Made by a program: the position numbers and the translations under genes
In this document: positions 13,444 through 60,823 of the stretch, one piece after another
How the letters are laid out: each line of letters opens with the position of its first letter
Numbering within the stretch: the stretch's first letter is position 1
Notes under the pieces: model-generated
The model's database searches: none
Told to the model about the DNA's origin: nothing
Seen by the model: only the letters and a program-made list of their open reading frames with translations
Virus record (IMG/VR): IMGVR_UViG_3300027816_000074
Location: 1 to 64,000 of that record
Length of the DNA stretch: 64,000 nucleotides
Strand: one strand, 5' to 3'
Origin: a virus

Positions 13444-13686
13444 ATGAACCTAAAATGGATCGTACTATTACCCGTTTTAATGTTCTTATCTGGATGTGAA
13501 GAGCGATACAGATATCCATGTCAAGACCCAGACAACTGGGAAGAAAAACAATGTAAAAAACCCTACTGTAGTGCCAATGGAACCTGTCCAGAAGACTTAA
13601 CAAACTACGAAAAAAAAAACGTAATGATTAATAAAGAAGGAAATGCTGTATTTGTACCAGCGCCAAGTAAAGGAGAATGTAAATGA
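13444..13686 (+). CDS. small Cys-rich lipoprotein
   Basis: 80 residues with signal peptide and lipobox LSGC (Cys18). The mature part has six more cysteines (CQDP, CKK, YCS, TCPE and the last Cys79) and no other recognisable feature, so disulphide bonding in the periplasm is likely. It has its own late promoter and a strong ribosome site, and overlaps the holin-like gene. A superinfection-exclusion or lysis-helper lipoprotein is possible. A run of ten A's near 13610 lies within it. Confidence 0.5.
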   Translation: MNLKWIVLLPVLMFLSGCEERYRYPCQDPDNWEEKQCKKPYCSANGTCPEDLTNYEKKNVMINKEGNAVFVPAPSKGECK

Positions 13687-14174
13687 TTAAAGAATTATGG
13701 GACGGACCAAGATATACGTCTGAAGAGCTTCAAGCTCGTTTAAAGTTTTTTATTGGTATAGTTCTAGGCCTAACACTATTTGGAATTGTTTTTGTAGTGT
13801 TATACAGTCTAATTTTTGTAACTCAACCAATGAATGGAATGAGCCCTGTTGATAATAAGTTTTTTGAACTCATTATACCTATCGCAACATTCTTAACTGG
13901 TACACTGTCTGGCATTATGCTAGCAGGTGACGACAAAGATTTAAGAATGAAAGCTATAGAAGCAGCTAATAAACCTCCTCCACCGAGTGCTCCTACACCT
14001 TCGCCGTCGATTTCACCAAGACCAGTTGGACCTAGTCCAATGATGCCTATGGCTGCTGCTCCGGCTGCAGGAATGGGAGTTGTTTCTGCTACGGGCGTTG
14101 GTGATCTTCCAGCTTTTGGAAAACCTGCTATTCCAAATACCCCGCTAGATGACACAATGAATCCATTAGAGTAG
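13683..14174 (+). CDS. holin-like two-segment membrane protein with Pro-rich tail
   Basis: 163 residues. A hydrophilic N-terminus is followed by two hydrophobic segments (about 21-46 and 63-82), then a soluble tail rich in Pro, Ala and Ser (about residues 97-150, beginning PPPPSAPTPSPS). It follows a lipoprotein and the spanin-like pair, which supports a lysis or envelope role. The topology suits a class II holin, but the long tail is unusual for one. Function is inferred from topology and context only. Confidence 0.45.
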   Translation: MIKELWDGPRYTSEELQARLKFFIGIVLGLTLFGIVFVVLYSLIFVTQPMNGMSPVDNKFFELIIPIATFLTGTLSGIMLAGDDKDLRMKAIEAANKPPPPSAPTPSPSISPRPVGPSPMMPMAAAPAAGMGVVSATGVGDLPAFGKPAIPNTPLDDTMNPLE

Positions 14175-18417: not shown

Positions 18418-20094
18418 ATGACTACATCATTACTAAGAAATTATATAGATATTTTAAACGAACAACAATCTAATCAAGTCAAAGTACCTCCAATTCCTGC
18501 TCTTCCTCCAACTGATGGGGAACTTAATGGAGGCGAAAAAGTCTATTCTAATCCCGATGGCACAAGATCATATGCTGGAGCATTTGGCAAATTTACATAT
18601 GATAAATCCGGCAAGGCAATAAAATATGCCACTCCTAATCTAGGCGGATTTGGAAAAGAGATTGATTTGCAAACCGGCCTTGTTAATACAGATGCGCAGG
18701 TAGGCGACATTAAAATGTCTACTAAACAGCGTCCAGATCAGAGCACAGTCACTAGTGCTAGTACTTCTGTTGGTGCTAATACTGTTTCTATGGATCAAGG
18801 TATAGGATTTGGTGGTGCAGGCAAGGATGTTGAACAAGGTGGGAATAAAATTTATAGCGTAACTGGTCCTGATCCAGAAGATAAAAGACAAGAACCAGAT
18901 AAACAAAGTTTCGTTGGTAGAAAACCATCGCAACAAGAGCTAGGTGTGTTAATGAAGGAATCTAATAAAATGTCATTAAGAAAATATTTAGATATACTAA
19001 ATGAAGGTCCTCCTCCGGGAGTAGGGCCCAATGCTGCTCCTAAAAAACAAGCAGCACCAACTATGCAACAAAGAGCAGATCAATTAGCCGCAGCAGATTC
19101 TCAAACAGGACAAGGCATGAGAGATATTGAAAAAGGTAATTATGCTGGCGGAGCAGTAGGAGTAGCTAAAGGTGTAAACCAAATGGCCAATGCTGCTGGT
19201 TTGTCGTTTTTAGATAAACTAAAAATGGGCTGGATGTTTGCCAAGGCTGGAGTAAGAGGACTAATCACTGGATTAAAAGCAGGAGATGCCGGTGCAGGAG
19301 CAAATGCGGCTGCTGCTAGTCTGATAGGCGAAGTTATTCCAGAAGTACACAAGTATGTAAATAGTCCTAATTTTGCAAAAGAATTCGAAGCTGGCGTAAT
19401 GAAGATGAAGGATAGTCCTGATCCTAAAAATAAAGAAATGTATCAAAAATATATGTCAGGAGAGCTAACTGCTAATAGTTTCAAAGCCTATGTAAATCGT
19501 CAATATGATGATTATTTAAAGATGCAAAAAGGTCAGAATGCATCAGGAGATGTAGATGATAATATGTATACAACACCTTCTGCTCCTATGAATACTAGTA
19601 ATTACTCGGCACAAACTCCGACTCCAGCAGAAGGAATACAATATAAAAATAAAAGTCTTCTAGAGCATATCGAAGAAATAGAAAATGAAGGGTCGTTAAG
19701 TTCTGGAGATTATTTCCATATAGAACTAGCAGAAGATGAAGGCATTGAAACTTGGGTCATTGCTGAGTGGAGTGAATCTGTATTGATCGAAGCAGACTCT
19801 GCTACTCTTAAATTATTAGAAGAACACGGCTGTACCTTCCATGATGAATTAACAGAAGCAGAATACCAAGGACGCAGCGTGTCATTAGGCAAACCCATGG
19901 CTGGCGATGTTAAAAAATCTAAAGTTTATGTTAAGAAGCCAAATGGCAAAGTAGTTAAAGTAAATTTCGGCGACAAAAAGTTAAGTATTAAAAAACATAT
20001 TCCTGGTCGCAGAAAATCTTTTAGAGCAAGACACAATTGTGCTAATCCAGGACCACGTTGGAAGGCACGTTACTGGTCATGCAGAGCATGGTAA
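18418..20094 (+). CDS. putative capsid-cargo polyprotein with three repeated cleavage-like elements
   Basis: 558 residues. A 12-residue element is repeated three times: SLLRNYIDILNE (4-15), MSLRKYLDILNE (185-196) and SLLEHIEEIENE (413-424). The first two end in LxE, the cleavage signature of the T4 prohead protease gp21. The segments between differ: a Gly/Ser-rich region, an Ala/Gly-rich helical region with a hydrophobic stretch (about 255-310), and a C-terminal basic domain (VYVKKPNGKVVKVNFGDKK...) with Cys pairs that is common in T4-like marine phage virion proteins. Read as an internal head protein; cleavage is inferred. Confidence 0.55.
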   Translation: MTTSLLRNYIDILNEQQSNQVKVPPIPALPPTDGELNGGEKVYSNPDGTRSYAGAFGKFTYDKSGKAIKYATPNLGGFGKEIDLQTGLVNTDAQVGDIKMSTKQRPDQSTVTSASTSVGANTVSMDQGIGFGGAGKDVEQGGNKIYSVTGPDPEDKRQEPDKQSFVGRKPSQQELGVLMKESNKMSLRKYLDILNEGPPPGVGPNAAPKKQAAPTMQQRADQLAAADSQTGQGMRDIEKGNYAGGAVGVAKGVNQMANAAGLSFLDKLKMGWMFAKAGVRGLITGLKAGDAGAGANAAAASLIGEVIPEVHKYVNSPNFAKEFEAGVMKMKDSPDPKNKEMYQKYMSGELTANSFKAYVNRQYDDYLKMQKGQNASGDVDDNMYTTPSAPMNTSNYSAQTPTPAEGIQYKNKSLLEHIEEIENEGSLSSGDYFHIELAEDEGIETWVIAEWSESVLIEADSATLKLLEEHGCTFHDELTEAEYQGRSVSLGKPMAGDVKKSKVYVKKPNGKVVKVNFGDKKLSIKKHIPGRRKSFRARHNCANPGPRWKARYWSCRAW

Positions 20095-20441: not shown

Positions 20442-21177
20442 TGTAAATGAAGGTGGAAACGTAATTCCAGGTGCTAAAGAAATTAATAAGAGAAATTTCC
20501 AAAGTGCAATGCAAAATCTTCAACAGGTATTACCAGATGGCATCAATGTCTATCCTATTGGCAGTGCAGGTAAGAAAGAAATCAGTAGTGATATTGATGC
20601 ACTGATTGACGCAAAAGAATTAATGTCAGTTTTTCCTGCAAAAGAATTAAAATTAAGTCGTAAGGCTCTAGAGGACTATTTTAAAGAAAACGGATACTTT
20701 GCCGCAAGAACAGGTGTTAGTATTCACGTAGGCATTCCTACTGGCGAAGGCGAGGAAATTGTACAAGTTGATCTTATGGCTGTAGAAAATGCTGCTGAAG
20801 TCCAACCTTTACACACTCATGACTACGACGAACCTACAATGAAGGGCGGAACCTTACACGCTATATGGGCAGATTTAGCTAATATGAGTCAACTTCCTGG
20901 TCATGAAAGTCTAATGATGAGTCCTTATAAAGGATTGGTTGATAGAAATACTAAAGAATTAATAACCAGCGATAAAGACAAAATCGCAAAAGTAATTATT
21001 GGATCAACGGCAAGTGCAGATGACATGGGATCACCTAAAAAAATGCTAAAGGCTCTAGAACCATATACTGAAAAGTATCAAGCAATTAAAACAAAATATT
21101 TTCCACAAACAGAAAGTTATGTTCCTGGAACAACTACTTGGTTTAGGCAAATGATTAATATAGCGAGTGTCCGATGA
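20434..21177 (+). CDS. polymerase beta-type nucleotidyltransferase
   Basis: 247 residues. GSAGKKEISSDIDALID (about 43-59) is the GS...DxD signature of the Pol beta superfamily, with a third acidic residue in VQVDLMAVE. The enzyme should transfer a nucleotide to an RNA end, protein or small molecule. It begins MINVNEGGNV, with a VNE that fits the short (I/L/V)xE leader seen in the following genes. It is directly followed by ligase-type and HxGH-type nucleotidyltransferases, so the three probably work together. Substrate unknown. Confidence 0.65.
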   Translation: MINVNEGGNVIPGAKEINKRNFQSAMQNLQQVLPDGINVYPIGSAGKKEISSDIDALIDAKELMSVFPAKELKLSRKALEDYFKENGYFAARTGVSIHVGIPTGEGEEIVQVDLMAVENAAEVQPLHTHDYDEPTMKGGTLHAIWADLANMSQLPGHESLMMSPYKGLVDRNTKELITSDKDKIAKVIIGSTASADDMGSPKKMLKALEPYTEKYQAIKTKYFPQTESYVPGTTTWFRQMINIASVR

Positions 21178-22328
21178 AATTAAGAGAATTGTTTGAAGCT
21201 GCTGCTCCTAAAGTTGGTAGAAAATATCAACACGTAGAAGACCTTGTAATTACTAATGGAGTACAGGGCGGGCTTCACGCAGTCGAAAGACTTAGAGATA
21301 TGGTAGATGATCCTAAGACTATTGAATTAAAGTGGGACGGAAATCCAGTAGTCTATTGGGGCAGAGATGCTGAAGGACGGTTTAGTCTTATACCTAAAAA
21401 TGCTTGGGAATACTTAAAAAGAGGCAAGCAGGAATTAGAAAACGGTATTAAAACTGTGATGTACGATCCCGAAGATATAAAAGATTTTATATTAGGCACA
21501 GGAAAACTAGATCCAGCAAAACAAAAAGAAAGAGAAAAGTTTGCTCAAGAAATTTCTGGATTATGGAATTATTTTGAAAAAGCCAGTCCACAAAAGGGAT
21601 ATGTTGAAGGCGGAATACTTTTTAGACCTGGACAGCCTGGCTGGTCCGGAGATCCTAATCCTTCAACGGGTGAATTTGATTTTACTCCAAATATAACTTC
21701 GTTTCATATAGGACCAGAATCACAACTATATGAAAAAATTAAAAGAGCTAAAATAATGGTAGCAGTGACCGGCTATTACGAAGAACTTGGTAGCAGTGAC
21801 GAGTTAAGATATCCAGATGCAGAAGCACTCAGCACAGAAGATGTTATAGTTCAAGGTACTACTTACATTGAAAAACTAGAAGGATTAGAAGTTCCAGAAT
21901 TAGATCAAATAGAAGAATACTTAAATAATCCAAAAGTTTCTAGTGCTATTTCAAGGTACTTGTCTCCAAAGCCTGGACTGAGTAATCCGGGAAGTGTTTT
22001 ATATACGTTTTTAAATGCTAATCTTAGAAAAAATAATCTTACTCAAGCATTTCAAAGTTGGTCGCCAACAAAATTAAGTGCTGGACAAAATCAAAAAATG
22101 TTGTCAGACATGGAAGGATTAGATTCTACTCTAAAAGCTGTAGAGATGCTTACAAATGCTAAAATGAAAGTGATTGCTGCTGCTAGTTTAGGAACACACG
22201 GCGGTATAAGACAAACTAAACCAGAAGGATATGCACAAGCACATCCAGGTAAAAAATTTAAATATGACATTCCTGGTCAATTTATAAAAGCGATTGATCA
22301 AGATACTTGGTCTCCAAAAAAGGATTGA
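21174..22328 (+). CDS. ligase-type covalent nucleotidyltransferase (RNA/DNA ligase-like)
   Basis: 384 residues, ATGA overlap. KWDG (about residues 54-57, in ELKWDGNPVVYWG) is motif I, with the lysine that becomes adenylylated. VEGGILFRPG further on resembles motif IV. This is the core of the ATP-dependent ligase superfamily; the rest diverges from T4 Rnl1/Rnl2 and DNA ligase, so the substrate is open. The N-terminus MKLRELFEAAAP matches the short leader with LFE/A of neighbouring genes and T4-type capsid-targeting peptides. Could seal or cap RNA, or modify proteins. Confidence 0.6.
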   Translation: MKLRELFEAAAPKVGRKYQHVEDLVITNGVQGGLHAVERLRDMVDDPKTIELKWDGNPVVYWGRDAEGRFSLIPKNAWEYLKRGKQELENGIKTVMYDPEDIKDFILGTGKLDPAKQKEREKFAQEISGLWNYFEKASPQKGYVEGGILFRPGQPGWSGDPNPSTGEFDFTPNITSFHIGPESQLYEKIKRAKIMVAVTGYYEELGSSDELRYPDAEALSTEDVIVQGTTYIEKLEGLEVPELDQIEEYLNNPKVSSAISRYLSPKPGLSNPGSVLYTFLNANLRKNNLTQAFQSWSPTKLSAGQNQKMLSDMEGLDSTLKAVEMLTNAKMKVIAAASLGTHGGIRQTKPEGYAQAHPGKKFKYDIPGQFIKAIDQDTWSPKKD

Positions 22329-22329
22329 A

Positions 22330-24198
22330 ATGAAAATTAATAATTTATTTGAAGATTTAACAAGAACAGGCGAGAGTAAAAGTGCAGTAGTAGGCTGGGG
22401 ACGTGGTATGGGACATAAAGGCCACATGTTCTTAGCCAGTAGCGTAGTAACTCATGCAGATGAACTTTCAGCAGATCCGTATTTTGTAGTTAGCAAAACA
22501 GTGGGCAAGGATGATCCAATAACCCCAGAAGAAAAATTAGAAATTTATAAAAAAGTTTTCCCAGAAAAAGGACATATTTTTCAAACTGCTAGCGACGAGA
22601 TGCCAGACCTTACGAGAGTGTTATCAAAATTAAATAGTTTAGGCTATGATAATGTTACTGTAGTTGTAGGCGCAGATCAAAAAAAAGCACTGAGCTATGT
22701 TCAAAATTATAATGGAACTCCTGATAAAAAAGGAAATATTCCATATAGTTTTAAAGAATTGAATGTAATTAGTAGACAAGAAACTAATGATCCTAATGCA
22801 GGAGAGGAAGGACCAAGGGCCACACCAATGAGAGATATATTAAAAAATCCAAATGCAAGCGAAGAAGAAAAATTTAAATTATGGCGATCATCAATGAGCC
22901 CCGAATTAAGCGACCAAGAAGTAAAAGACTTAATGAGTAAGGCTTCGGATCGCATGGGGGAATTCACTGGGAAAAAAGATAAGGTTGCAGAATCAGTAAC
23001 TCCTGATCAATTTAAAAAAACTATGCTTTCTGAAGTAAAAAGACTTGTAGAAGAAATAAAGAAAGACCCTTATATCTCTAAAATGTTAAAAGAAGATAAT
23101 CAGGATGAAGACTACTATTATGTAGTTCGTCGTCAGACTGAACAAGACATTGAATTAGAAATGCCTTCAAAGATGTGGACCGGTCTTAAACCTAAACATG
23201 CCACATACGAAGAAGCCAAAGCAGCATACGAAGAACTAAAGAACAAGCATCCTAGAGAAAAGTTCACAGTTACAAGACATCCTAGGACATCTCACATAGG
23301 TGGCAAACCTAATCGAGAGTTTCCAGAAGGTGTGGCGGAAGGCTCTGACAATATTGAACAAATCAAAGCCAAAATTCGAGAGTTAGAAGCAGAACAGGAA
23401 GAAAACAAATATGGTTCTTTTGCCTATGACAGTGTAGACGCTGAACTGCAATTTTTATACGGAAAGTTAGATAAAATTAAAAAGCAAGGTGTGGCGGAAG
23501 GCTCAGATGATATTGAGGATACACGACAATGGAGAGATGCTATTGCTTTAGCCAAATCACAAAAGGCGATCCGTCAGGCTCGATATGGCAAAGACCAAAA
23601 GTTTTATGCCGACGGCACACCAGTAACTCCTGAGGAAGTTGCTCGCAGAGCCGCAGAAAGAAAAGCCAAAAAGAAAGGTGTGGCGGAAGGCTCTGGCGGT
23701 GCCAGATATAAAATAAAAAGCATTGGTAAAGACAAGAACGGTGATTATTACATCAGCCCTAACACAGGCAAAAAAGTTTACAAGAATGCTAAAGTGGGTG
23801 ATCACGAAACTCCACGCGGGGAAGTAAAACCTAATGTGGCGGAAGGTAAAATTAAAATAAAAATTAAACATCCGCCAGAAACTGCTCAAGAAAAGTTATA
23901 TAAGAAGCATCAAGAATTAAGAAAGAAAAGTGGCTTACCTGATCCAGAAGAATATAAAAAGAAAGCAGCCGAAAAACAAAAAGAAATTGATGACATGAAA
24001 GAAGCTAAAACTGCTGAGCCACCTAAACCAAGAAACTTTGTAGCTAAAAACGCAAAAACAGCAGGTGCAGGCAAGCATAAAGATGCTAAGAAAGCAGAAA
24101 AGCAAGGAAAAGTTAAGCACAAAGCACAGAGCATACCATTAGATGAATCTAAATGGGGGCCTGCTATGAAAGCATATGCTAAAAGAAACATACCCTAG
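22330..24198 (+). CDS. HxGH nucleotidyltransferase fused to a GVAEG-repeat cassette tail
   Basis: 622 residues from ATG 22330; an upstream TTG/ATG would extend into the previous gene. The N-terminal domain (about 15-210) has GHKGH (28-32), a VVVGADQKK strand and a late TPMRD motif, as in adenylyl/cytidylyltransferases. From residue 218 the protein becomes a chain of unrelated charged segments separated by VAES (219-222), GVAEGS (334-339), GVAEGS (387-392), GVAEGS (450-455) and VAEG (503-506). The N-terminus is MKINNLFED. Three joints are identical 17-base DNA repeats. Each joint fits a prohead-protease site; cleavage is inferred. Confidence 0.65.
   Translation: MKINNLFEDLTRTGESKSAVVGWGRGMGHKGHMFLASSVVTHADELSADPYFVVSKTVGKDDPITPEEKLEIYKKVFPEKGHIFQTASDEMPDLTRVLSKLNSLGYDNVTVVVGADQKKALSYVQNYNGTPDKKGNIPYSFKELNVISRQETNDPNAGEEGPRATPMRDILKNPNASEEEKFKLWRSSMSPELSDQEVKDLMSKASDRMGEFTGKKDKVAESVTPDQFKKTMLSEVKRLVEEIKKDPYISKMLKEDNQDEDYYYVVRRQTEQDIELEMPSKMWTGLKPKHATYEEAKAAYEELKNKHPREKFTVTRHPRTSHIGGKPNREFPEGVAEGSDNIEQIKAKIRELEAEQEENKYGSFAYDSVDAELQFLYGKLDKIKKQGVAEGSDDIEDTRQWRDAIALAKSQKAIRQARYGKDQKFYADGTPVTPEEVARRAAERKAKKKGVAEGSGGARYKIKSIGKDKNGDYYISPNTGKKVYKNAKVGDHETPRGEVKPNVAEGKIKIKIKHPPETAQEKLYKKHQELRKKSGLPDPEEYKKKAAEKQKEIDDMKEAKTAEPPKPRNFVAKNAKTAGAGKHKDAKKAEKQGKVKHKAQSIPLDESKWGPAMKAYAKRNIP
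23329..23693 (+). repeat. three exact 17-bp direct repeats encoding GVAEGS
   Basis: ggtgtggcggaaggctc occurs at 23329-23345, 23488-23504 and 23677-23693; a shorter copy tgtggcggaaggt is at 23835-23847. All are in the same frame and separate unrelated segments. Confidence 0.9.
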
Positions 24199-26219: not shown

Positions 26220-26477
26220 ATGAGGTTAAGGGAGCTTCTTGGCGAAACTGCAACTGCTGGAGCCACTACCGCTGCTAATGTAGGCACGGTAGTTAGTCCT
26301 CATATTGCCATAGGTAAAGATCGAGGAAAGAAAAGTTATACAGGTAGTCCAGGCAAATCAGGTACAAAAGCACCAAGTGTACCAAAAGCAGTTCAAGCTA
26401 AAAACTCTGACGGCACTGCTAAAAATGCTCTTGATATGAAGGGCAACATTTTTGGCGGCGGCGCTGTCAAACGATAA
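26220..26477 (+). CDS. small putative capsid-cargo protein
   Basis: 85 residues starting 2 bases after the endolysin stop. MRLRELLGETATAG again has the short basic-hydrophobic leader ending in LxE (here LGE). The rest is Gly/Ala/Ser/Lys-rich and disordered, ending ALDMKGNIFGGGAVKR. Small disordered basic proteins with such leaders fit internal head proteins. No enzyme motif. The next late promoter box lies at its stop codon. Confidence 0.5.
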   Translation: MRLRELLGETATAGATTAANVGTVVSPHIAIGKDRGKKSYTGSPGKSGTKAPSVPKAVQAKNSDGTAKNALDMKGNIFGGGAVKR

Positions 26478-26481
26478 ATAT
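26473..26481 (+). promoter_or_regulatory. late promoter box (GATAAATAT)
   Basis: GATAAATAT 21 bases before ATG 26503, overlapping the end of the previous gene; a GGAG site lies between. Confidence 0.65.
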
Positions 26482-26502
26482 AGAATAAATTTGGAGAAAC
26501 TC

Positions 26503-27561
26503 ATGCATCACGATTTAATTCCGTCTGAAAGAGATCACGAAGGTAAAATGGCCCGTGCTGACCTTTTTAAACTAGCACAATATAGTTTTAAGTTATTTAA
26601 AATGCTCGATGACAATCAGCAGTTAGATGGCTGGGTACAAGCTAAGATTACCAAAGCTGCAGACTATATTGCTAGTGTATATCACTATTTAGAGTACGAA
26701 ATGAAATTTAGTGATTACGGACAAAAGCTTGAAAATAGCGATCTTTATGTTGAGTCAATTCGCAATGTCTATACACAAAAACTCACAGAAGCCAAAAAGA
26801 AAATGGATAAGCTTAAAGCCTCTTTAGATAAAAAAGAAAAAGAGATGCAAGAAGGCTTTGACGAAATGGAAAAGTATCTAAAAGATAAAAAAGGTCCTCA
26901 GCCAAGTGGCAGTGCTGGTAAGAAGCAAGGATCCAGATACGGCGGCAGCAAGCAAAAAGACGATGAAGATAAAGAGAAAGACGTTAAAGAAGGTTTTCCA
27001 ACTGTAGCAGATGCTAAAGCACGCCACGAAAAAGAAAAAGGCACCGGCAAGTTTGATAAAAAGAAAATTAGTACTGGCACAGTTTACACTCGTAAAGCTG
27101 ATAAAGATGTTGACGATGAAGAAGATACTCCGAAGAAAAACAAAAAAGTTAAAGAAGGTGCTAAGCCAGATTTCTTAGACATGGACAAAGATGGCAACAA
27201 AAAAGAGCCTATGAAAAAGGCAGTTGCTGATAAGAAGAAAAATCCGTTTGCTAAAAAAGTCAAAGAAGACACTCGTCTTGCAATGAGCCCTGCTCCTGCT
27301 CAGAAAAAATCTGGGATACCAAGTACAGCAACAACTACAGTACCAGGTATGAGAGCCACACCTGCTGATTTAAAGAAAGCAAATTCTAGTGCTGCGCTAG
27401 GCGAAGGAAAATGCAATCATAGTGCCAAAGGTAAAAAGTGTCCAGTACATGGCCTAAAAGAATGTGGTAGTATGTATGAAAGTAAAAAAGTAGTACCTGT
27501 AATACAAGAAAGTGCTGAAGTTGCAAGACTTAAAGACTTAACTAAAAAGCTGTTAGGATAA
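26503..27561 (+). CDS. virion protein with VKEG-joined disordered segments
   Basis: 352 residues from ATG 26503. The N-terminal 100 residues (RADLFKLAQYSFKLFKML...WVQAKITKAADYIASVYHY) are a helical domain conserved in T4-like marine phages. Then come charged, disordered segments joined by VKEG (about 160), VKEG (about 215), VKED (about 254), LGEG (about 299) and IQES (about 335). One segment holds DMDKDGNKKE, an EF-hand-like loop. Another holds CNH...CPVHG...C, a possible zinc-binding knuckle. The joints have the VxE/G form seen in the 22330 gene. Scaffold or internal head protein is the likely class. Confidence 0.55.
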   Translation: MHHDLIPSERDHEGKMARADLFKLAQYSFKLFKMLDDNQQLDGWVQAKITKAADYIASVYHYLEYEMKFSDYGQKLENSDLYVESIRNVYTQKLTEAKKKMDKLKASLDKKEKEMQEGFDEMEKYLKDKKGPQPSGSAGKKQGSRYGGSKQKDDEDKEKDVKEGFPTVADAKARHEKEKGTGKFDKKKISTGTVYTRKADKDVDDEEDTPKKNKKVKEGAKPDFLDMDKDGNKKEPMKKAVADKKKNPFAKKVKEDTRLAMSPAPAQKKSGIPSTATTTVPGMRATPADLKKANSSAALGEGKCNHSAKGKKCPVHGLKECGSMYESKKVVPVIQESAEVARLKDLTKKLLG

Positions 27562-52172: not shown

Positions 52173-53280
52173 ACCATTCAGTAAGTTTTTCTTTAAGATT
52201 TTTTCCGATCTGCTCTTGAACAATCTGTCTATGCTGATTGTTCTTTTTTAGCCTCTCGTTGAGATTAGTAACGGACATTATGGAATCTTTGTTCTTTAAA
52301 AGACGTTCTAGCTCTTCTGCTACCATTTTTATTCGATTACCCGGATTTGGTTCTAAATCGTAAGAATGATCTACAATATCATCAAAGACATCAAACCCGT
52401 GATCCCTAACAGCTTGCACATGCCCTTTAACTGTTACAAATAATGGTATCTGATAAGATTGAAAAGCAAAAAACGTTTTCTCTGTTAAAAATACTCTATC
52501 ACTAAAAATACCTCCACAGTAGTTAGTACATTTTGTTCCAGGTATAATAGAATCGTCATAAGTAGATTCTAAAACTACTTTTACTATTGAATCTATTGCT
52601 TCGGGCGGGTAAGTGACTACATACTGATTTCTTTTTACTATTCCGTCAGCATACATTGGAAACAAATGTGTGTATTCTGCAGGTATTAATTCTTTATATA
52701 ATTCGTCCCCGTAATCGTCTGAAACTCCAAAACTCACACACCCTAAATTTAAAAGGTCTCGTTTAACTAATTCTAAAGTAAATAATAATCTAAAATTTTT
52801 TGGATTTCTTGATAAAGAATTGTAAAAAGTTTTTCTTTGAGAAATAGGCGTTAGTGCTCGCACTACACTTGTTAGATCCAATACAGGATTAATAACAAAA
52901 GGATTTGTACCTATGTGAGGGTAACTTCCGTCTGTAGTATATCCTGCATCAACAACCATTATATCTTCAATATTTTTTCCTGTTATTTCTAAAATAAAGT
53001 CTACTATTTCTTTCCATCTGTAATTTGGTAACGCTTCATTTCTGACCATTAATAAAAGTTTAGGGTATTCTTTTAATTTCTTTATGCTATGGCCAACAAT
53101 AAAAAGTTTTATCCTGCCAAGGTTATCCCAATATTTTAAAGCTGCTACATCAAAATTAATTACGCCTATTTTACGTTTTCCTCTACCTTCTAGAAGATGA
53201 ACTATGTCTCTGTTTAACCATACCCAATCTTTATCTTTAACTCTCTCTTGTAGTACGTTTAAATGAGATTTACTTAGCAT
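52162..53280 (-). CDS. glycosyltransferase-like phage protein
   Basis: 372 residues from ATG 53280 (GGAGATAAAACTT upstream); a longer reading frame would run further into the radical SAM gene. The C-terminal TEKTFFAFQSYQIPLFVTVK, then VRDHGFDVFDDIVDHSYD, is a pattern I know from phage and bacterial glycosyltransferase-like proteins, in which the (S/T)EKT..A loop lies at the donor site. The N-terminal half is not assigned. It may move a sugar onto a product of the neighbouring enzymes. Function is tentative. Confidence 0.5.
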   Translation of the reverse strand: MLSKSHLNVLQERVKDKDWVWLNRDIVHLLEGRGKRKIGVINFDVAALKYWDNLGRIKLFIVGHSIKKLKEYPKLLLMVRNEALPNYRWKEIVDFILEITGKNIEDIMVVDAGYTTDGSYPHIGTNPFVINPVLDLTSVVRALTPISQRKTFYNSLSRNPKNFRLLFTLELVKRDLLNLGCVSFGVSDDYGDELYKELIPAEYTHLFPMYADGIVKRNQYVVTYPPEAIDSIVKVVLESTYDDSIIPGTKCTNYCGGIFSDRVFLTEKTFFAFQSYQIPLFVTVKGHVQAVRDHGFDVFDDIVDHSYDLEPNPGNRIKMVAEELERLLKNKDSIMSVTNLNERLKKNNQHRQIVQEQIGKNLKEKLTEWFNQ

Positions 53281-54430
53281 AAGTTTTATCTCCAGGAAAT
53301 AACGGTAGTTCAGTATTAGGTGCTCTTTTAGGAATTTTACTATCGGCACTACTTACACAACTTGGAGTAATACAAGGTTTAGGACTATCAAATAATCTAA
53401 AACCTGTTTCTATATTTCCCAATGGCACATCGTGACAGCTATAACTTCGTTTGATGCTTCCGTCTGGTTCGCGTATAATAATACCTCGATATCCACTACT
53501 ACATTCCCATCCTTCAAATTTGTTAAAATTAAAGGCATTAAATCGTTCGGCCTGATCCATGTACCACACCTTTTGTTCTTTATCTATAAATTCTACTTGA
53601 AAGTGTTGTGGGATATTTTGATTTTCTGCTTTATAAATTGGATCAGGCATCTTAACAAAAGTAGGAAATGGTCTTGAGACTAGTTTAGCAGTGGCAGCTT
53701 TAGCTTCAGTAAACGCCCGTTGAGGCATTCCGTTATGTAACTTTTCTAACATTTCAGAAGTATAACCATCTACTACCCGACTAGCAGTGGGATCGCTTTG
53801 AGGCTTTAATGTAACATTAATACCCCTATTATGAAAGTAAAGAGCGTTTTCATAATCTTTATCAAACCACTCTGGTACCATGACCATATTAATTGTAACT
53901 TGTACATCATGGTCTTGACAAAGTTCTAATTTATCTCCAAATTCTTTTAGCTTCTCTTTAGTGTCAACATGTTCAGTGTGTAGACTAGCAGTTATACTTG
54001 CACGGTGGAATTTACTAACAGCAGGACAATATTCATCGTTAAACCATTTTACAGTTCTGCTCATATTAGTTGTCATATGAACACTGGTGTAATTTGTATT
54101 TGGGGCATCATTATTCAAATGATTTAAAATATCTATGTACCCTGGATGAAAGGTTGGTTCGCCTCCACTAAGGCTAAAATGAAAACTATTAAATCCTCTT
54201 TCTCTAGCCTGTCGTTTAATTTCGTCTACAGTTTTAATACATAATTCTGTTGGTCTATGATCTTTTTTATCACTCCGTGCATAAGGCCAACAATAGCTAC
54301 AACGATAGTTACAATATCTGCCTAATAACCAACTTACTGTAAAAAGGTCTCTATATAACATATTTCGTTGTCCAACACGAACTATATTTTCAAACGGTAT
54401 TTTTTTAAAATCGTATTCTGATTTTTCCAT
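53270..54430 (-). CDS. radical SAM enzyme with SPASM-like C-terminus
   Basis: 386 residues. CNYRCSYC (Cys40, Cys44, Cys47) is the CX3CX2C motif, and SGGEPT (88-93) is the SAM-binding GGEP. The C-terminal part (CSSGYRGI, SYSCHDVP, PKPCITPSC) has enough cysteines for an auxiliary cluster. SPASM-type enzymes often modify peptides or proteins. The N-terminal 30 residues lack an obvious leader-binding RRE. First of four radical SAM genes in the island. Confidence 0.75.
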   Translation of the reverse strand: MEKSEYDFKKIPFENIVRVGQRNMLYRDLFTVSWLLGRYCNYRCSYCWPYARSDKKDHRPTELCIKTVDEIKRQARERGFNSFHFSLSGGEPTFHPGYIDILNHLNNDAPNTNYTSVHMTTNMSRTVKWFNDEYCPAVSKFHRASITASLHTEHVDTKEKLKEFGDKLELCQDHDVQVTINMVMVPEWFDKDYENALYFHNRGINVTLKPQSDPTASRVVDGYTSEMLEKLHNGMPQRAFTEAKAATAKLVSRPFPTFVKMPDPIYKAENQNIPQHFQVEFIDKEQKVWYMDQAERFNAFNFNKFEGWECSSGYRGIIIREPDGSIKRSYSCHDVPLGNIETGFRLFDSPKPCITPSCVSSADSKIPKRAPNTELPLFPGDKTYAK

Positions 54431-54431
54431 G

Positions 54432-54986
54432 TTAAACTTTCTGAATTGGGTCTATGCTTATTTCGTTTATATGAAATTCTTTAGGCTGTTCAATAACCCA
54501 TTTTATGTAATTTGCTGCAAGACTAATATCCATACAAGTCCTAGTTGGATGTTTATGTTGTACATTAGATAAACTACCAAAACTTACTAAAGTGACTGTA
54601 GGACCTCCTTGCCATACACCGTTCATCGAAAGTGTATTACAATAATCTCTCAAAGCTTTTTTCTCTGCATTATATAACCATGCTCCGCCTTTTTTAACTC
54701 GATCAGTTGTTGATCCTACACAAATTATTTTTAGATCTTTTTTGTTTTCTATGCAAGATTTATAAACTGCATCTAGTAGTACAGTTTGGTTAAATTTCCA
54801 TAGTGCTGAACAATTTATAAAAATATCGTAATCTAAAACTTTTTTGGCTAGAGATAACTGTCCATCCGCTGAGGTTAAATCGTAGCCAGTTGTCCTTGAT
54901 ACAAAAGTAGCGTCCGGATATATTTTAAATAGTTCAGAAGACAATCCAAAATTTTTATTTCCGGTTATTAGTATTTTGGAGCTCAC
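54432..54986 (-). CDS. short-chain dehydrogenase/reductase
   Basis: 184 residues, somewhat short for the family (about 250). ITGNKNFGLSSEL replaces the usual TGxxxGIG loop; INCSAL, Ser92 in VGSTTD and YNAEK with Tyr105 and Lys109 give the Ser-Tyr-Lys triad. NAD(P) binding is likely. The substrate may be a sugar or the product of a nearby enzyme. It begins at the divergent gap with the 55069 gene and is followed by a radical SAM gene. Confidence 0.65.
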   Translation of the reverse strand: MSSKILITGNKNFGLSSELFKIYPDATFVSRTTGYDLTSADGQLSLAKKVLDYDIFINCSALWKFNQTVLLDAVYKSCIENKKDLKIICVGSTTDRVKKGGAWLYNAEKKALRDYCNTLSMNGVWQGGPTVTLVSFGSLSNVQHKHPTRTCMDISLAANYIKWVIEQPKEFHINEISIDPIQKV

Positions 54987-55020
54987 ATCTTCCTCTTATT
55001 TTTACTTTGAAATAGTAGCA

Positions 55021-55029
55021 TATAAATAT
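55021..55029 (+). promoter_or_regulatory. late promoter box (TATAAATAT)
   Basis: TATAAATAT, a perfect T4 late box, 39 bases before ATG 55069, in the gap between divergent genes. Confidence 0.65.
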
Positions 55030-55068
55030 TTAGCTAGTAAAAACTAGCCAACATAATTTGAAGAACCC

Positions 55069-56421
55069 ATGAGAAAACTAGTTAAAAATACATACATCAT
55101 ATACATTGTTGATGATAACAAGGATTATAAAGACACCTTAGGTCAGGAAATTGGTTATAATCTTCTAGAAGCATCTGTAAGGCACGACATGCTTTACAAA
55201 TACTTTTTATCTTACGACGATGCATTTAAAAGTTTACAAACAGAAACAGCTCCTAAAGTCATTTTTACAAGACCAGGAAACACATTTGATCCAATATGGT
55301 TAGCACAGTTAGTTTCTAAAAATCCAGAGTATTCTCTAATTGGACATCTTTTAGACAAAGGTGAAGAATACTACGAACTACACAATCAATGTTTTATATT
55401 AGATGTTAAAGATTGGAAACAATCCGGATCTCCTATGTATAATTCTCCTGGAGAGCAAACATGTACAAATATCAGTAGGAGCGAGAACAATTTTCATGAT
55501 CACCACACTCCTTTATCAGTTGATAAAGGTGATGGAACAAAGACCTATAAAAAGATAAAGCCAGGCGGATTAATTATTAGTAAATTGTTAGAACACGGAT
55601 TTAAAATTAGGCCGTGGACTTCAGAAGAAAGAAAGCATAAGTTTTACCTATACGATGATCTAGTTTTAAAGTACGGATCTTATCTACGTATAGAATGTAC
55701 GTTTGACGACACTATCTTTAATTGTACAAATGAACCAATTGTAAAATTTGAACTCCCGCAAATTAAAAGAATTGTAACTCCCGCAAACGGACTACAAGCC
55801 TTACAGATTATTGACAAGTGCCCTAATGCTACTACTGTAGATTTTAGAGATATTAGTCAATCTGCAATCAATTTTACAAAAAATGTTTTAGACAATTATA
55901 TCGGAAAAGATTATGACCAACTATGTTTTTCTAGCGGGTACAATCTTCAAGTTAGCAATCAAGAGTCTATTAGAAAATCAGAACAAGAATTTTTAAACGG
56001 GCTTGTAGAACCTTATTCCGAAATGCAGTTTAGATTACTAGAACTGAATTGTAACTATTTCAAAGAAAGCTTCTTTGAAATAGAAGATTTAATTAATAGG
56101 ATGAATGGTAATACATTGTATGCGTTTAGCAATATTCTGTCTTATAGGAAAACAGCATACTTGTACAGTCAAATTCATTTTAATTTAATGTTAAAAACAT
56201 TAGCTAGTGCAGAAAGACTAGCAAAAAATGATAGTTATTTTTTAGGAATGTTACCTACTAGCGAAGCATCGACAAGAGGATATGCGTTAATGCATGTTAA
56301 AGATGTTAGTTTAGATCCTGATACAGAATTCAACTTTCCTTGGAGACAAAAATTATATGAATACTACACTGAATATCTCGGAATTCTTCGAGAAAAGGAA
56401 AGAAGAAAATCATTATCATAA
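55069..56421 (+). CDS. two-domain phage protein, Rossmann-like C-terminal half
   Basis: 450 residues. Residues about 235-300 (TPANGLQALQIIDKCPNATT, then VDFRDISQSAINFTKNVLD) follow the motif I to IV order of class I SAM-dependent methyltransferases, though the GxGxG is not standard. The N-terminal half (SLIGHLLDKG..., QCFILDVKDWKQSGSP) is a domain common in phages and not assigned. The C-terminal 100 residues are helical. May be a methyltransferase or only share the fold. Preceded by a late box. Confidence 0.4.
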   Translation: MRKLVKNTYIIYIVDDNKDYKDTLGQEIGYNLLEASVRHDMLYKYFLSYDDAFKSLQTETAPKVIFTRPGNTFDPIWLAQLVSKNPEYSLIGHLLDKGEEYYELHNQCFILDVKDWKQSGSPMYNSPGEQTCTNISRSENNFHDHHTPLSVDKGDGTKTYKKIKPGGLIISKLLEHGFKIRPWTSEERKHKFYLYDDLVLKYGSYLRIECTFDDTIFNCTNEPIVKFELPQIKRIVTPANGLQALQIIDKCPNATTVDFRDISQSAINFTKNVLDNYIGKDYDQLCFSSGYNLQVSNQESIRKSEQEFLNGLVEPYSEMQFRLLELNCNYFKESFFEIEDLINRMNGNTLYAFSNILSYRKTAYLYSQIHFNLMLKTLASAERLAKNDSYFLGMLPTSEASTRGYALMHVKDVSLDPDTEFNFPWRQKLYEYYTEYLGILREKERRKSLS

Positions 56422-57097
56422 TTTAACTGAGATACCAAAACATCTAAATTTAGATGCTCAGTTAAAATGGATTATTGAAGAATCAAACTTAAGAACTCTT
56501 AGATTAAATGTTGAGATTCCCCATGAACAGATGTATCAAGAAGCTGAAATTCTTCTTGACGAATTTTATTCTCATCGAGACGAAGGCGAAGATCACAGAG
56601 GGTGGAAAAGTCTTGTTATTCACGGACGAGGAAAACATATTACTCAAGGTGACGAACAATACGAAAATTTAAAAGATCTTCCCGACTATCATTGGACTGA
56701 GATAGCCGACAAATGTCCTATAACAACTATGTGGTTAAAAAGTTGTTGGCCTTTAGATAAATTTCTCAGGGTACGATTTATGCTTTTAGAACCAGATGGC
56801 TACATTATGCCTCATAGAGATAACAATAAAAGAAAGTTACAAGCAATTAATATAGCGTTAAATAATCCAGTTGGTTGCGAATTTGGTATGGAAAACTACG
56901 GAGTTATACCATGGAAATCTGGAGATGTTAGATTAATAGATATAAGCACGAATCATGCTGTTTGGAACAATAGTAAAACTCCCAGAATACATATTATTGT
57001 ACATGGATGGCCAGTTCAACAATATAAAGAGTACAGAAATTTAGTTATAGAAAGTTATAAAAAAACATATGAAGAATATATTGCATCTTGGAAGTAG
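56357..57097 (+). CDS. aspartyl/asparaginyl beta-hydroxylase-like oxygenase
   Basis: 246 residues. FMLLEPDGYIMPHRDNN with His153 and Asp155, and NHAVWNNSKTPRIHIIVHG with His200 and Arg210, give the Fe(II)/2-oxoglutarate site of the aspartyl hydroxylase family. An N-terminal 110-residue region precedes it. The 65-base overlap with the previous gene is long; ATG 56357 is the only early start. It probably hydroxylates a protein or peptide. Smaller relative at 29178. Followed by the tandem SGNH-like genes. Confidence 0.75.
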   Translation: MNTTLNISEFFEKRKEENHYHNLTEIPKHLNLDAQLKWIIEESNLRTLRLNVEIPHEQMYQEAEILLDEFYSHRDEGEDHRGWKSLVIHGRGKHITQGDEQYENLKDLPDYHWTEIADKCPITTMWLKSCWPLDKFLRVRFMLLEPDGYIMPHRDNNKRKLQAINIALNNPVGCEFGMENYGVIPWKSGDVRLIDISTNHAVWNNSKTPRIHIIVHGWPVQQYKEYRNLVIESYKKTYEEYIASWK

Positions 57098-57803
57098 TTG
57101 GAGTGAAGTAAATGGTGTACCTAATCATAGCTTACCATTTTTTGTAACAGAAGGCCTTATTAATCGAGGTATTGATGTAAACTATTATTCAACAGCTATG
57201 GGCGGTTGTGGATTAGGTGTTCAATTTGAAATTTTATTAAACATTTTAAACGGTAAAGAAAAAATTGATTTTGTTTTATTTGAAGTAACTACATTTGACA
57301 GATTTCATTGTCAACTATTAGACTCTGATATTGTATGGGAAAAAGAAGATAGTCATCCTAATATTGTACAATGTCGAAACTGGCTTATTAAAAACTATAT
57401 TTTTTGGATGCCGCTGCATAAAGAAATTATTAATCAACATTGGCCTTATCTGTCGAATAAAGGAACATATTTAAAAATGGCCAAACTTTTAAATGCGGGC
57501 GACTTTAATTGGGAAAGTATTTTTTTAAGTAGAATAGTAACAATTAAAAATTTACTTAAAAAAAGAAATATTCCGTTTTTAATATATGCACACGATTCGA
57601 AACAAATGGTAGATAAAACTCGGATATCTCAATTAGTACTTAAAGAAATATACGACGAACTAGACTTTTGTGTTAACGAGTACATTGGTATTGAAACTTT
57701 TAAGAAATTTGCCATCGACAGAGGATTTCATATGTCGCCCAACGGTGACAGATATATAGCTGAAAATGTTTTAATACCAAAAATTATTGAAAAATTAAAA
57801 TGA
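57069..57803 (+). CDS. SGNH-hydrolase-like protein (tandem copy 1)
   Basis: 244 residues. LHLGSSWSE (block I with Ser10), GGCGLGVQFE (oxyanion-type Gly/Gln) and IDRGFHMSPNGDRYIAEN with Asp217 and His221 reproduce the SGNH ester hydrolase pattern. It is a paralogue of the following gene with the same layout. No signal peptide, so the substrate is inside the host. SGNH proteins remove or move acetyl groups on sugars. Overlaps the preceding oxygenase gene by 29 bases. Confidence 0.65.
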   Translation: MKNILHLGSSWSEVNGVPNHSLPFFVTEGLINRGIDVNYYSTAMGGCGLGVQFEILLNILNGKEKIDFVLFEVTTFDRFHCQLLDSDIVWEKEDSHPNIVQCRNWLIKNYIFWMPLHKEIINQHWPYLSNKGTYLKMAKLLNAGDFNWESIFLSRIVTIKNLLKKRNIPFLIYAHDSKQMVDKTRISQLVLKEIYDELDFCVNEYIGIETFKKFAIDRGFHMSPNGDRYIAENVLIPKIIEKLK

Positions 57804-58507
57804 AAAAAATATTACATTTAGGGTGCAGTTGGAGTCAATTTAATCACGAAGGACAAAAAGGAGTACCTGAAAATACAGTCGAAGTATTAAAAGAGAAAAA
57901 TGTTGATGTTCTCTATTACAGTGCATCCCATGGTGGTTGCGATCTTGGAACACAATTTGAAGTACTAAAATCAGAGATAGGTAAAGGCTACGATTTTATT
58001 ATATTTCAAGTTACTTCTGACAGTAGACATCATATAAGAACTGGTCATTATAATTTAGACTGGACTCCTACTGTTTCTCATCCAAACATTTATAAGTGTG
58101 ATGTTTCTTTAAGAAAAAGTTTTGTGTTCTGGAATCCAAATTACGGAAAAGCTATAGATCAATTCTGGCATAAACATAACAGAGATTATCGAATGGCTGC
58201 TAAACTTAGTTACTCTTACGACTGGGATGATCAAAGTTTATACTTTGGTCAAATATGTTCGATTAAAAAAATATTAGAAAAATCTAATACTCCTTACATA
58301 ATCTATAGTCATCGGAATATCTGGTGGGAAAAACATAATAATATCTTTCAGGCTCACACAACTGATCTACTTGATTTTGATGTTGAAACACAATTAGGTG
58401 ACAATTTTAATTCTTATATTGTAGACGACGGACACCATTTAAGTAGTCAAGGAAATAGGATAGTAGCCGAAGAATTAATTGTTCCTAGACTACTACCCTA
58501 TCTATAA
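57800..58507 (+). CDS. SGNH-hydrolase-like protein (tandem copy 2)
   Basis: 235 residues, ATGA overlap with copy 1. LHLGCSWSQ (Ser10), GGCDLGTQFE and VDDGHHLSSQGNRIVAEE (Asp209, His213) match copy 1 residue for residue in the motifs while the rest has diverged. The two probably arose by tandem duplication and may act on different substrates or as a heterodimer. It ends one base before the stop of the convergent minus-strand gene. Confidence 0.65.
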   Translation: MKKILHLGCSWSQFNHEGQKGVPENTVEVLKEKNVDVLYYSASHGGCDLGTQFEVLKSEIGKGYDFIIFQVTSDSRHHIRTGHYNLDWTPTVSHPNIYKCDVSLRKSFVFWNPNYGKAIDQFWHKHNRDYRMAAKLSYSYDWDDQSLYFGQICSIKKILEKSNTPYIIYSHRNIWWEKHNNIFQAHTTDLLDFDVETQLGDNFNSYIVDDGHHLSSQGNRIVAEELIVPRLLPYL

Positions 58508-59410
58508 TTACATCTTAGCTTGTTCTTTTCGCCACTCTATAAGTAAATCATCATCGAGTTCAACTAAGAAAGTTAGTAATAAACCCATCTTAGCGTTCCA
58601 TAATTTTTTACCTTTGCTCTTAGTACCTTCATTAGTATTATGCAACTGTACTGCATCGAACCACATAGGTTTACCTGGTTCCCAATCTAAAATAGTTTCA
58701 GCACTTAAACCTTTTAATCTTTCATACGGAGTATTCATTACCTGCTCAAAAACAGATTTATCAAAAGGTGTTGCATTGTTTTCTTTAGGAACAGCAGTTC
58801 CTTGACCGTCATAGAATTGAAGTTCAGTGTAATCAGTGGTAATTTTATACACACTAGCAATATTAGGAACTAGACCGCCACCATTATAAACATGCGCCCA
58901 GTCAATATGTCGCTGATCGAAGAATACAATTTGTCCACCATCTTCTTCATTAAGATGTGTTCCTATCCATAAAGGTAACAACCAATTTTTCCAACAAGTG
59001 TATTTTCGTTGTTCGTGATTCAACGGGACTTTATCAAATGTAGTTGTAAAATCTTCAGGCCTTATACTATCATTATGTAATCCATATTGTTGGGGAGTAA
59101 TAAAATAATTACCGCCCACTTGTGGACTTTTTTCAGCAGGTATACCTAAACACTGATCGATTCTATCTTTAAATTTTAAATAAACTTCATGTAACTGTCC
59201 TGCTACTAACACAGTTCCGTTTTTATTCATTCTAACTTCTTTGCCTCCGGCAAATGCAAATTTCCAAATCCAATCTAATTCTTCTTTTGAAAACATTGCA
59301 TCTTCAGATTTTGATGCTCGGCTAATATGCCTACGCATATTTTCAACTGCTATAGGATGATCCATTGGAAGCATATAATGCTCCCTTCTTAAACCTTTAG
59401 TGTACTCCAT
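58508..59410 (-). CDS. 2-oxoglutarate/Fe(II) oxygenase-like protein
   Basis: 300 residues. YGLHNDS with His112 and Asp114 and a distal His257 in AVQLHNTNEG form the iron triad, followed by KLWNAKMGLLLTFLVEL. GTHLNEEDGGQIVFFDQR is the usual strand before the second half. It resembles phytanoyl-type/prolyl-hydroxylase folds rather than the aspartyl hydroxylases nearby. It may oxidise the product of the adjacent radical SAM enzymes. Start 59410 overlaps the upstream gene by 14 bases. Confidence 0.7.
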   Translation of the reverse strand: MEYTKGLRREHYMLPMDHPIAVENMRRHISRASKSEDAMFSKEELDWIWKFAFAGGKEVRMNKNGTVLVAGQLHEVYLKFKDRIDQCLGIPAEKSPQVGGNYFITPQQYGLHNDSIRPEDFTTTFDKVPLNHEQRKYTCWKNWLLPLWIGTHLNEEDGGQIVFFDQRHIDWAHVYNGGGLVPNIASVYKITTDYTELQFYDGQGTAVPKENNATPFDKSVFEQVMNTPYERLKGLSAETILDWEPGKPMWFDAVQLHNTNEGTKSKGKKLWNAKMGLLLTFLVELDDDLLIEWRKEQAKM

Positions 59411-60803
59411 AAAATACTCCTGTCATTTCTGGAAAAATTTCTTCAAAATTTAAACCTCTATGTGTATCAAGTGCTTTTAAATATTCTGTTGTTTCAGGTA
59501 ATCGGTTAGTCCAATCTTCTGATTTCATAAATTTAATCATGCCGCGCAATCTTTTGATACCATACTCGGCGTTAAGCCACTGTTCTTTTGTTACCTTACC
59601 TTTATGCCATTCAGGAACACCTAGTTCCCAGTTTTCTATCCACCATGGTATAAATTCCTCATAGTGTTGTTCGCATTTGTCTTTAAACCATTGAGGTAAG
59701 ATCTTGACATTTAGGTGTGGTGGCCAATATACAAAATGATGATTAATTCCACCTGCACCAAATGGCCACATGTTAATCTTTTTATAGTTCTGTTGTAATT
59801 TCCATTTGATAAATTCTGGAATATAATAAATGTTCAATGCCTGTACTGCACATGCAACTGTAATTTCTACGTTGTCAGATGTTTGTGTATCTAGAATCTT
59901 AAATACTTCTTCTGTACGTTCCCATTTACTAGGATATCTAATATAGGCATTCTTTTCACCTATTGCATCAACACTATAATGGAATCGAACAAGTTTAAAT
60001 TCTTTCCATAACTCAAATAAATCTTCTCGCCATTCGACTCCGTTACTGTTATAACGAAGTTCTAAATTCTTAGCATGTCCTTGCTTTATACATTCTTCTA
60101 AAATTTCGTAATGTTCTTCTATGATTAATGGCTCGCCACCTGCAAAATAAAGCTGTTGCATATTCGGGATTTGTTCATAGAATTGCTGCCAAAAAAGAGG
60201 ATTATTTTTATGCCAATTAAAACTTGAGCCGTTAACACTGCCCTTGTTTTCCCATGCCATGGTCTTGCTTAATTCTCTATTCTGTATAGTAGGATGGATC
60301 TTATTCCATTCTGGAATCCAATTACTACTATCATGCGGACTGCACATTACACAGGCTAATTGACATTTAGATCCGAATCTAAGATCAATATATTTTAAAT
60401 TAGGAGGGACTTGTCCATCATCTGTTGTCTGTGCAATTAACTGATCGATGTCCACACGCTGAGCCCAATAGTTAGTTTCCCATTGTCTTTTGCTTACATG
60501 ACCAGATTCTTCTTCTTTATAACATTTTGAACAGCTTTCTGGCTGTCCATTATCTAACATAATTTTTCTTACATTTTTCATGTAAGTGCTGTTCCAGCTT
60601 GATTGGAAATCGCTAACATTTAAGTTAGCTGGTTTACCTTCTTCTGTCTTCAACATTCCGACATGACCCCCGGTTTCAGCATTTGTAGATCCAACACCGC
60701 TAGCATTAGCAGTGCAACATACTCTCATACTACCGTCAGGTCTTGTACTTAAATGTATCCAAGGAAGAATACAAAATGTGTCTGATGGATATTTTTGTGT
60801 CAT
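59397..60803 (-). CDS. radical SAM enzyme, twitch-domain type
   Basis: 468 residues. An N-terminal cysteine region (CILPWIHLSTRPDGSMRVCC with Cys11, Cys29, Cys30, then CSKC at 91-94) precedes the radical SAM motif CQLACVMC (Cys147, Cys151, Cys154) and FAGGEPL. This arrangement is typical of twitch-domain-containing radical SAM proteins found in many marine phages, with no known product. It is a paralogue of the 61986 gene. Substrate unknown. Confidence 0.75.
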   Translation of the reverse strand: MTQKYPSDTFCILPWIHLSTRPDGSMRVCCTANASGVGSTNAETGGHVGMLKTEEGKPANLNVSDFQSSWNSTYMKNVRKIMLDNGQPESCSKCYKEEESGHVSKRQWETNYWAQRVDIDQLIAQTTDDGQVPPNLKYIDLRFGSKCQLACVMCSPHDSSNWIPEWNKIHPTIQNRELSKTMAWENKGSVNGSSFNWHKNNPLFWQQFYEQIPNMQQLYFAGGEPLIIEEHYEILEECIKQGHAKNLELRYNSNGVEWREDLFELWKEFKLVRFHYSVDAIGEKNAYIRYPSKWERTEEVFKILDTQTSDNVEITVACAVQALNIYYIPEFIKWKLQQNYKKINMWPFGAGGINHHFVYWPPHLNVKILPQWFKDKCEQHYEEFIPWWIENWELGVPEWHKGKVTKEQWLNAEYGIKRLRGMIKFMKSEDWTNRLPETTEYLKALDTHRGLNFEEIFPEMTGVFYGVH

Positions 60804-60823
60804 GGAAATATTTAGTTATTATG

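Follow-up and report, generated by a model that had tools for sequence, protein, structure and literature searches.

The genome of an environmental phage, which is T4-like, from freshwater, and probably a jumbo phage, carries a gene that joins a nucleotidyltransferase-like domain to a series of unrelated cassettes, and these cassettes are exchanged between genomes at a short, nearly constant DNA sequence (here termed the joint). The account that we favor, and judge likely from the sequences compared, is that the gene product is a polyprotein destined for the head, where the prohead protease would cleave it into packaged modules, and that the DNA of the cut site is also the junction at which modules are shuffled. 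Exchange, breakpoints, conservation of the joint DNA, and protease-like constraint on the joints were all computed here.

Organization of the polyprotein gene

The window (the whole stretch of 64,000 nt that was analyzed) spans bases 1 to 64000 of a 108,619-bp virus record, and positions 22330 to 24198 of its plus strand form one open reading frame (ORF) of 622 aa, counted from the ATG; all features of the polyprotein lie on this strand. The protein opens with a putative capsid-targeting leader, MKINNLFE (22330 to 22353), with an L-x-E site after residue 8, a designation that draws on orthologue N termini, disorder in the structural model, and likeness to T4 IPII and IPIII. There follows the nucleotidyltransferase-like domain (22354 to 22992), recognized from its IMG/VR relatives, its similarity to cyanophage proteins, and its model (pLDDT 87). 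It contains the motifs GMGHKGH and GPRATPMR, shares 27 to 32% identity with cyanophage cytidyltransferases, and closes with a VAE joint spelled in other codons (gttgcagaa, 22984 to 22992). A Foldseek search against the PDB returned no significant match for either this domain or cassette C, so motifs and sequence similarity are the sole basis of the enzyme label.

The remainder of the chain was delimited largely by reading the sequence itself. Segment X (22993 to 23328) runs from the VAE joint to joint 1 (23327 to 23345), which is read in the frame GVAE/GS (the slash marks the candidate cut). Cassette A (GSDNIEQIKAKIRELEAEQEENKYGSF..., 23341 to 23487), joint 2 (23486 to 23504), cassette B (GSDDIEDTRQWRDAIALAKSQK..., 23500 to 23676), joint 3 (23675 to 23693), and cassette C (GSGGARYKIKSIGKDKNGDYYISPNTGKKVYK..., 23689 to 23844) succeed one another, and cassette C closes with joint 4 (23835 to 23846), read as VAE/GK. 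Within the fetched set, other copies of cassette A occur only in near-identical records of the same phage, whereas cassettes B and C are found at 14 and 17 loci, respectively; cassette C is predicted to adopt a small beta fold (pLDDT 80). The C-terminal basic module (23845 to 24195), which contains PRNFVAKNAKTAGAGKHKDAKKAEKQG, weakly matches phrog_1359, a family to which 9 of 59 other cassette ORFs also show matches, and segments resembling it lie near the N terminus in the loci L148 and L149.

Conservation of the joint DNA

The initial annotation described three joints as identical over 17 bases; identity at the DNA level was borne out, and the repeat is in fact longer, as joints 1 to 3 share 19 bp (AAGGTGTGGCGGAAGGCTC); joint 4 agrees with them over 12 bp (TGTGGCGGAAGG). 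Exact copies of GTGGCGGAAGG in the window are confined to the four joints, and those of GTGGCGGAAGGC in the complete 108,619-bp record to the first three. Since GTG, GCG, and GGC are minor codons in the usage of this phage (9% of Val, 6% of Ala, and 20% of Gly, respectively), four joints of the same spelling are far from chance. An assembly artifact was rejected because the repeats are shorter than the usual assembly words and because the same arrangement recurs in three other IMG/VR records, which are probably separate assemblies.

A separate origin of the cassettes had also been argued from enrichment in gcc and aag codons. This argument is weakly supported, with marginal enrichment for gcc (Fisher P = 0.07) and none for aag (P = 0.78); the cassettes do nonetheless differ in GC content (43%, versus ~36% in both flanks).

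Conservation of the joint DNA exceeds what the encoded residues require. At VAE[GS] sites in loci that were fetched by cassette or nucleotidyltransferase similarity, without use of the joint, Val is encoded by GTG in 66% of cases (background, 15%) and Ala by GCG in 65% (background, 7%), and the next Gly is mostly GGC. Where cassettes share 30 to 60% amino acid identity, their fourfold third positions agree at 0.38 and the third positions of their joints at 0.82, a comparison biased toward conserved joints because part of the set was chosen with the 17-mer. Among nearly identical cassettes the order is slightly reversed (0.94 for cassettes versus 0.90 for joints), as separate histories of joints and cassettes would predict. 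Synonymous variation at the joints, proposed at the outset as an argument against the repeats having a role of their own, thus exists but is smaller than in the cassettes that they flank, nearly identical cassettes excepted.

Exchange of cassettes at joints

Querying IMG/VR with the nucleotidyltransferase domain, independently of the joint, recovered 73 related loci, mostly 60 to 75% identical. The complete orthologues are 230 to 949 residues long and have tails of unrelated content; the conserved cassette order that had been named beforehand as grounds for refutation was not seen among these orthologues. Individual cassettes show how the tails come to differ. Cassette B is 91% identical in DNA to a segment of L148 and L149 from joint to joint (window positions 23480 to 23691), and the nucleotidyltransferase region of the contigs bearing those loci is 71% identical to that of the window, with their copy of cassette B residing in a different protein. 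Cassette C shares 94% DNA identity with another locus (L162), and the match stops exactly at GTGGCGGAA. In pairwise comparisons of L180 with L188 and with L198, homology ends inside the joint, at GGTGTrGCGGAAG.

Comparison of all pairs (identity of at least 75%, with a breakpoint assigned to a joint if ≤15 bp from GVAE) yielded 727 distinct breakpoints, 23% of which fall on GVAE in both sequences, versus 0.25% of random positions. Breakpoints thus coincide with joints ~100 times as often as random positions do, and an earlier per-pair count agrees, as does the original suggestion that the 17-bp repeats mark breakpoints; about 60% of breakpoints have no GVAE nearby in either sequence. Stricter clustering (single linkage, in which fused segments merged families, was set aside) resolved 95 cassette families present in at least two ORFs, with a median length of 73.5 residues for an internal cassette, and 65 of the 95 have different neighbors on both sides. 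Neither the breakpoints nor the families count as independent events, because many pairs have a common history. With content and order varying among orthologues, neighbors changing, and breakpoints lying on the joints, we hold with high confidence that cassettes are exchanged at joints, and of the two roles first proposed for these repeats, recombination point and protease site, the former is the more strongly supported. Exchange may rely on the general recombination of phages acting on short homology, or on a dedicated process.

Joints as candidate protease sites

Joints that have drifted from the consensus by one to four mismatches (n = 322) retain Glu at P1 in 317 instances and an aliphatic or similar residue (V, M, L, or I) at P3 in 319, while P1′ is occupied by G, A, D, E, S, V, and others. 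At the codon level, these joints show almost no change at position 2 of the Val codon (T) or at positions 1 and 2 of the Glu codon. The pattern resembles the cleavage motif of T4 gp21, L/I-x-E, which is cut after Glu (PMC9026906), and the protease of the giant phage SPN3US cuts after A-x-E (PMC5694885, PMC10052503).

Among the 19 joint-bearing contigs, an S77 prohead protease gene is present on 8 and a gene for a gp23-type capsid protein likewise on 8. A near-identical 180-kb relative has both, with the protease at L249:6411-7046; neither gene was found in the 108.6-kb record of the window itself, which is a fragment. The capsid proteins examined have an L-x-E-like site at the expected maturation cut, mostly followed by an ATAGAT-like sequence; in the relative, this site reads YLME/SPSAGAT, with the cut positioned by likeness to T4 gp23. 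Val at P3 of the joints does not match the T4 preference for Leu or Ile: its acceptance is something we infer, whereas both the protease and a comparable site do occur. Given the retention of an aliphatic P3 and a P1 Glu under drift, together with the protease and L-x-E capsid site of the relative, the proposal that joints are protease sites gains support, and the joints are probably cleaved by the prohead protease. On a separate note, two stray short matches on a 364-kb joint-bearing contig (L143 and L144; G001:C1:201018-201194 and 13510-13689) involve the N-terminal part of the gp23 capsid domain.

The joints could instead be flexible linkers that double as recombination junctions, in a head-packaged protein that stays uncut and is delivered whole, as polyvalent proteins are. 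Their composition is linker-like, exchange at joints is possible without cleavage, and phage polyvalent proteins of 2 to 15 domains are known (PMC5512222). Linkers, however, need no fixed Glu and aliphatic P3, yet drifted joints keep both as P1′ varies, and we consider this explanation unlikely. Slightly more doubtful still is a variant in which the joint is at once a protease site and a dedicated recombination site, where a phage recombinase or a programmed short-homology process would, in integron-like fashion, diversify an injected arsenal.

Modules and their probable packaging in the head

The window protein combines several disparate domains in one chain, the nucleotidyltransferase-like domain plus unrelated cassettes, and many cassettes at large are short and charged. 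Pfam matches among 59 multi-joint ORFs include GNAT acetyltransferases, the SutA RNA polymerase (RNAP)-binding domain, AT-hook, TAT signals, GP88, and several DUFs, and PHROGs further assigns a cytidyltransferase and many families without an assigned role. Such a set, judged by domain matches, would suit early host takeover. No Pfam peptidase family was detected in the window protein or among the 59 related ORFs. Several cassettes (in L198, L024, L047, L057, L084, and L162) open with a twin-arginine-like stretch (DRRGFLKGLGAAAVAG), which is odd for a head-packaged module.

In 26 of 27 orthologue N termini, [LIV]xE precedes the RTG motif, versus ~1.7% expected, and residues 1 to 7 of the window protein are disordered and of low confidence in the model. 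T4 IPII and IPIII begin MKTYQEFIAEA, and in T4 the first ten residues suffice for packaging (PMC9026906). The cyanophage nucleotidyltransferase homologue in P-SSM2, annotated as T4-GC190, begins MKSFSQFLTET, and mass spectrometry of purified S-SM1 virions detected T4-GC190 (PMC3037559). Under a strict N-terminal pattern, 20% of joint ORFs qualify versus 12% of a control that itself contains other leader-bearing proteins. Among PA5oct proteins, targeting-like N termini are not enriched in those detected by mass spectrometry (4/93 versus 9/237; P = 0.76). On balance, the polyprotein is likely packaged in the head, and delivery of active modules into the host is somewhat probable.

Two other explanations bear on packaging. 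The protein might serve as a scaffold or as part of the prohead core, its modules being cleaved and lost from the head in the manner of T4 core proteins rather than injected as a payload. The protease and the compartment would be the same, most fragments produced by cleavage of T4 gp22, gp67, and gp68 exit the head (PMC9026906), and short, charged cassettes would fit. A conserved nucleotidyltransferase with a cyanophage homologue present in mature virions speaks against such a role, as do enzyme-like or RNAP-binding modules in related ORFs, leaving it improbable. Even less credit goes to a tail that is never packaged, made of ordinary cytoplasmic modular enzymes or regulators in which V-x-E is a coincidence of the common descent of joints: leader enrichment is indeed modest under the strict pattern and absent in PA5oct, but constraint on P3 and P1 across drifted joints, the leader in nearly all orthologues, and the virion-borne cyanophage homologue make this very improbable.

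Leader-like N termini recur in neighboring genes. Immediately upstream of the polyprotein gene, a DUF6267 protein (21174 to 22328) bears a KWDG motif; among its relatives, 12 of 14 distinct N termini have an [LIVF]xE leader, with a conserved GRKYQH shortly after, and the differing leaders look like an exchange of targeting leaders. The 558-aa protein at 18418 to 20094 starts with a leader-like sequence (LLRNYIDILNEQQ) and contains another one internally (MSLRKYLDILNEG, with LNE at 18997), which gives it the look of a fusion of two leader-bearing proteins; its basic C terminus, ending RRKSFRARHNCANPGPRWKARYWSCRAW, closely matches the end of the cassette protein at L150. A short protein at 26220 to 26477 (MRLRELLGETATAGATT...) contains LGE/TATAGATT, similar to the capsid-protein maturation site, and the protein at 26452 to 27561 has two identically spelled VKEG sites (26983 and 27148). 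Both are candidates for the same class as the polyprotein. The CNH...CPVHG segment named in the initial annotation (27412 to 27453) lies in the latter ORF and not in the polyprotein. Elsewhere in the same virus record, a 330-aa protein (L125:679-1671) starts with MRISDLIAEAGP, very near the leader of T4 IPII and IPIII.

Distribution of the joint

Scanning IMG/VR with the 17-mer joint returned at least 119 stretches and, among the matches listed, nearly all copies are in an open frame as GVAEGS with differing neighbors. Sequences at or close to CAAGGTGTGGCGGAAGGC were tallied across the fetched loci by mismatch and reading frame, and they occupy the same open frame in 134 of 136 exact, 107 of 111 one-mismatch, and 89 of 91 two-mismatch cases (330 of 338 overall). 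That the cassettes are selfish mini-elements inserting in frame, like the Rickettsia palindromic elements, with GVAEGS as the translated element end, would account for the recurrence of short, constant-ended elements across many genes and genomes; it was rejected as barely credible, because the families are unrelated and share the joint alone rather than a common element body, nearly all copies occupy one frame of an open ORF where intergenic and other-frame copies would be expected, and drifted joints remain under protein-level constraint.

In GTDB, 26 exact 18-mer matches were found in 257 Gb of contigs, versus ~7.5 expected from length alone with base composition ignored, and no link of the joint to bacterial genomes was seen. 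The joint is absent from the five isolate records scanned (PA5oct, CBB, Vibrio 2.275, Phosso, and P-SSM2), and the P-SSM2 record has no match to GVAEG-coding or joint DNA. In the open-license literature, GVAEGS has no match and a head polyprotein of this arrangement (DUF names included) is not described.

Other genes in the window

Two further regions were annotated by eye only. Positions 53270 to 63260 (minus strand) hold a run of radical-SAM-like proteins with CxxxCxxC-type motifs beside an oxygenase-like protein, which is unusual for a phage. Between 34218 and 45000 lie tRNA-guanine transglycosylase-like, GTP cyclohydrolase-like, and QueE-like radical-SAM proteins, a set that suggests 7-deazaguanine DNA modification.

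Proposed mechanism and relation to known systems

For the head-targeted, protease-cut polyprotein, we infer cleavage itself, packaging, ejection, and module roles as follows. A short N-terminal capsid-targeting sequence would carry the polyprotein into the prohead core, where, during maturation, the S77 (gp21-type) prohead protease would cleave after the Glu of every V-A-E joint. Cleavage would free the nucleotidyltransferase and the small modules, which would remain in the head and go into the host along with the DNA. Recombination between phage genomes at the joints would lead to cassettes being gained, lost, or swapped, with repeated exchange, selection, or both holding the joint DNA nearly constant.

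T4-like phages pack and inject poorly conserved internal proteins, and the isolates closest by capsid-protein similarity are jumbo T4-like phages (Phosso, 72%; PA5oct-like, 67%). As in the T4 internal head proteins (IPI, IPII, IPIII, and Alt), there is a short N-terminal leader ending in [LI]xE and a gp21-type protease in the group, and head packaging and ejection are presumed here; unlike them, the chain holds several modules with repeated VAE sites in between, and these sites, conserved as DNA, coincide with breakpoints of recombination. Polyvalent proteins of phages and conjugative elements likewise carry many unrelated domains per chain, with a GNAT-type domain in common, and are predicted to be injected with DNA, to be pieced together from solo versions, and to be processed by embedded metallopeptidases, of which a zincin-like one is common though not universal (PMC5512222). 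Here, by contrast, a prohead protease is proposed to act in trans at repeated short joints, and the modules are mostly small and of unassigned families.

Giant-phage head proteins processed by gp175/gp245-type proteases (phiKZ and SPN3US) are packaged and cut after x-x-E, with several motifs per propeptide; these propeptides are mostly removed, and the available portions of the reports do not describe module swapping at the sites (PMC5694885, PMC10052503). Domain mosaicism similarly involves protein fragments continually shuffled between phages, with that study stressing receptor-binding proteins, endolysins, and replication proteins and its abstract naming no constant DNA joint or protease site (PMC10684548). 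Cyanophage modular proteins (P-SSM2 T4-GC119, S-CAM9 gp160, S-RIM2, and P-TIM68) contain modules also present in the freshwater cassette proteins, arranged in other orders; the one record scanned of these four, that of P-SSM2, lacks the joint. By analogy, the arrangement may function as a combination of the T4 internal-protein and polyvalent-protein systems.

If the joint is both cut site and crossover site, any cassette inserted in frame could still be freed as a module of its own. Were this reading true, joint plus leader would predict injected payload and so give meaning to many “hypothetical proteins” in aquatic T4-like phages, and the idea of polyvalent proteins would extend to a form that is cut in trans by the capsid protease.
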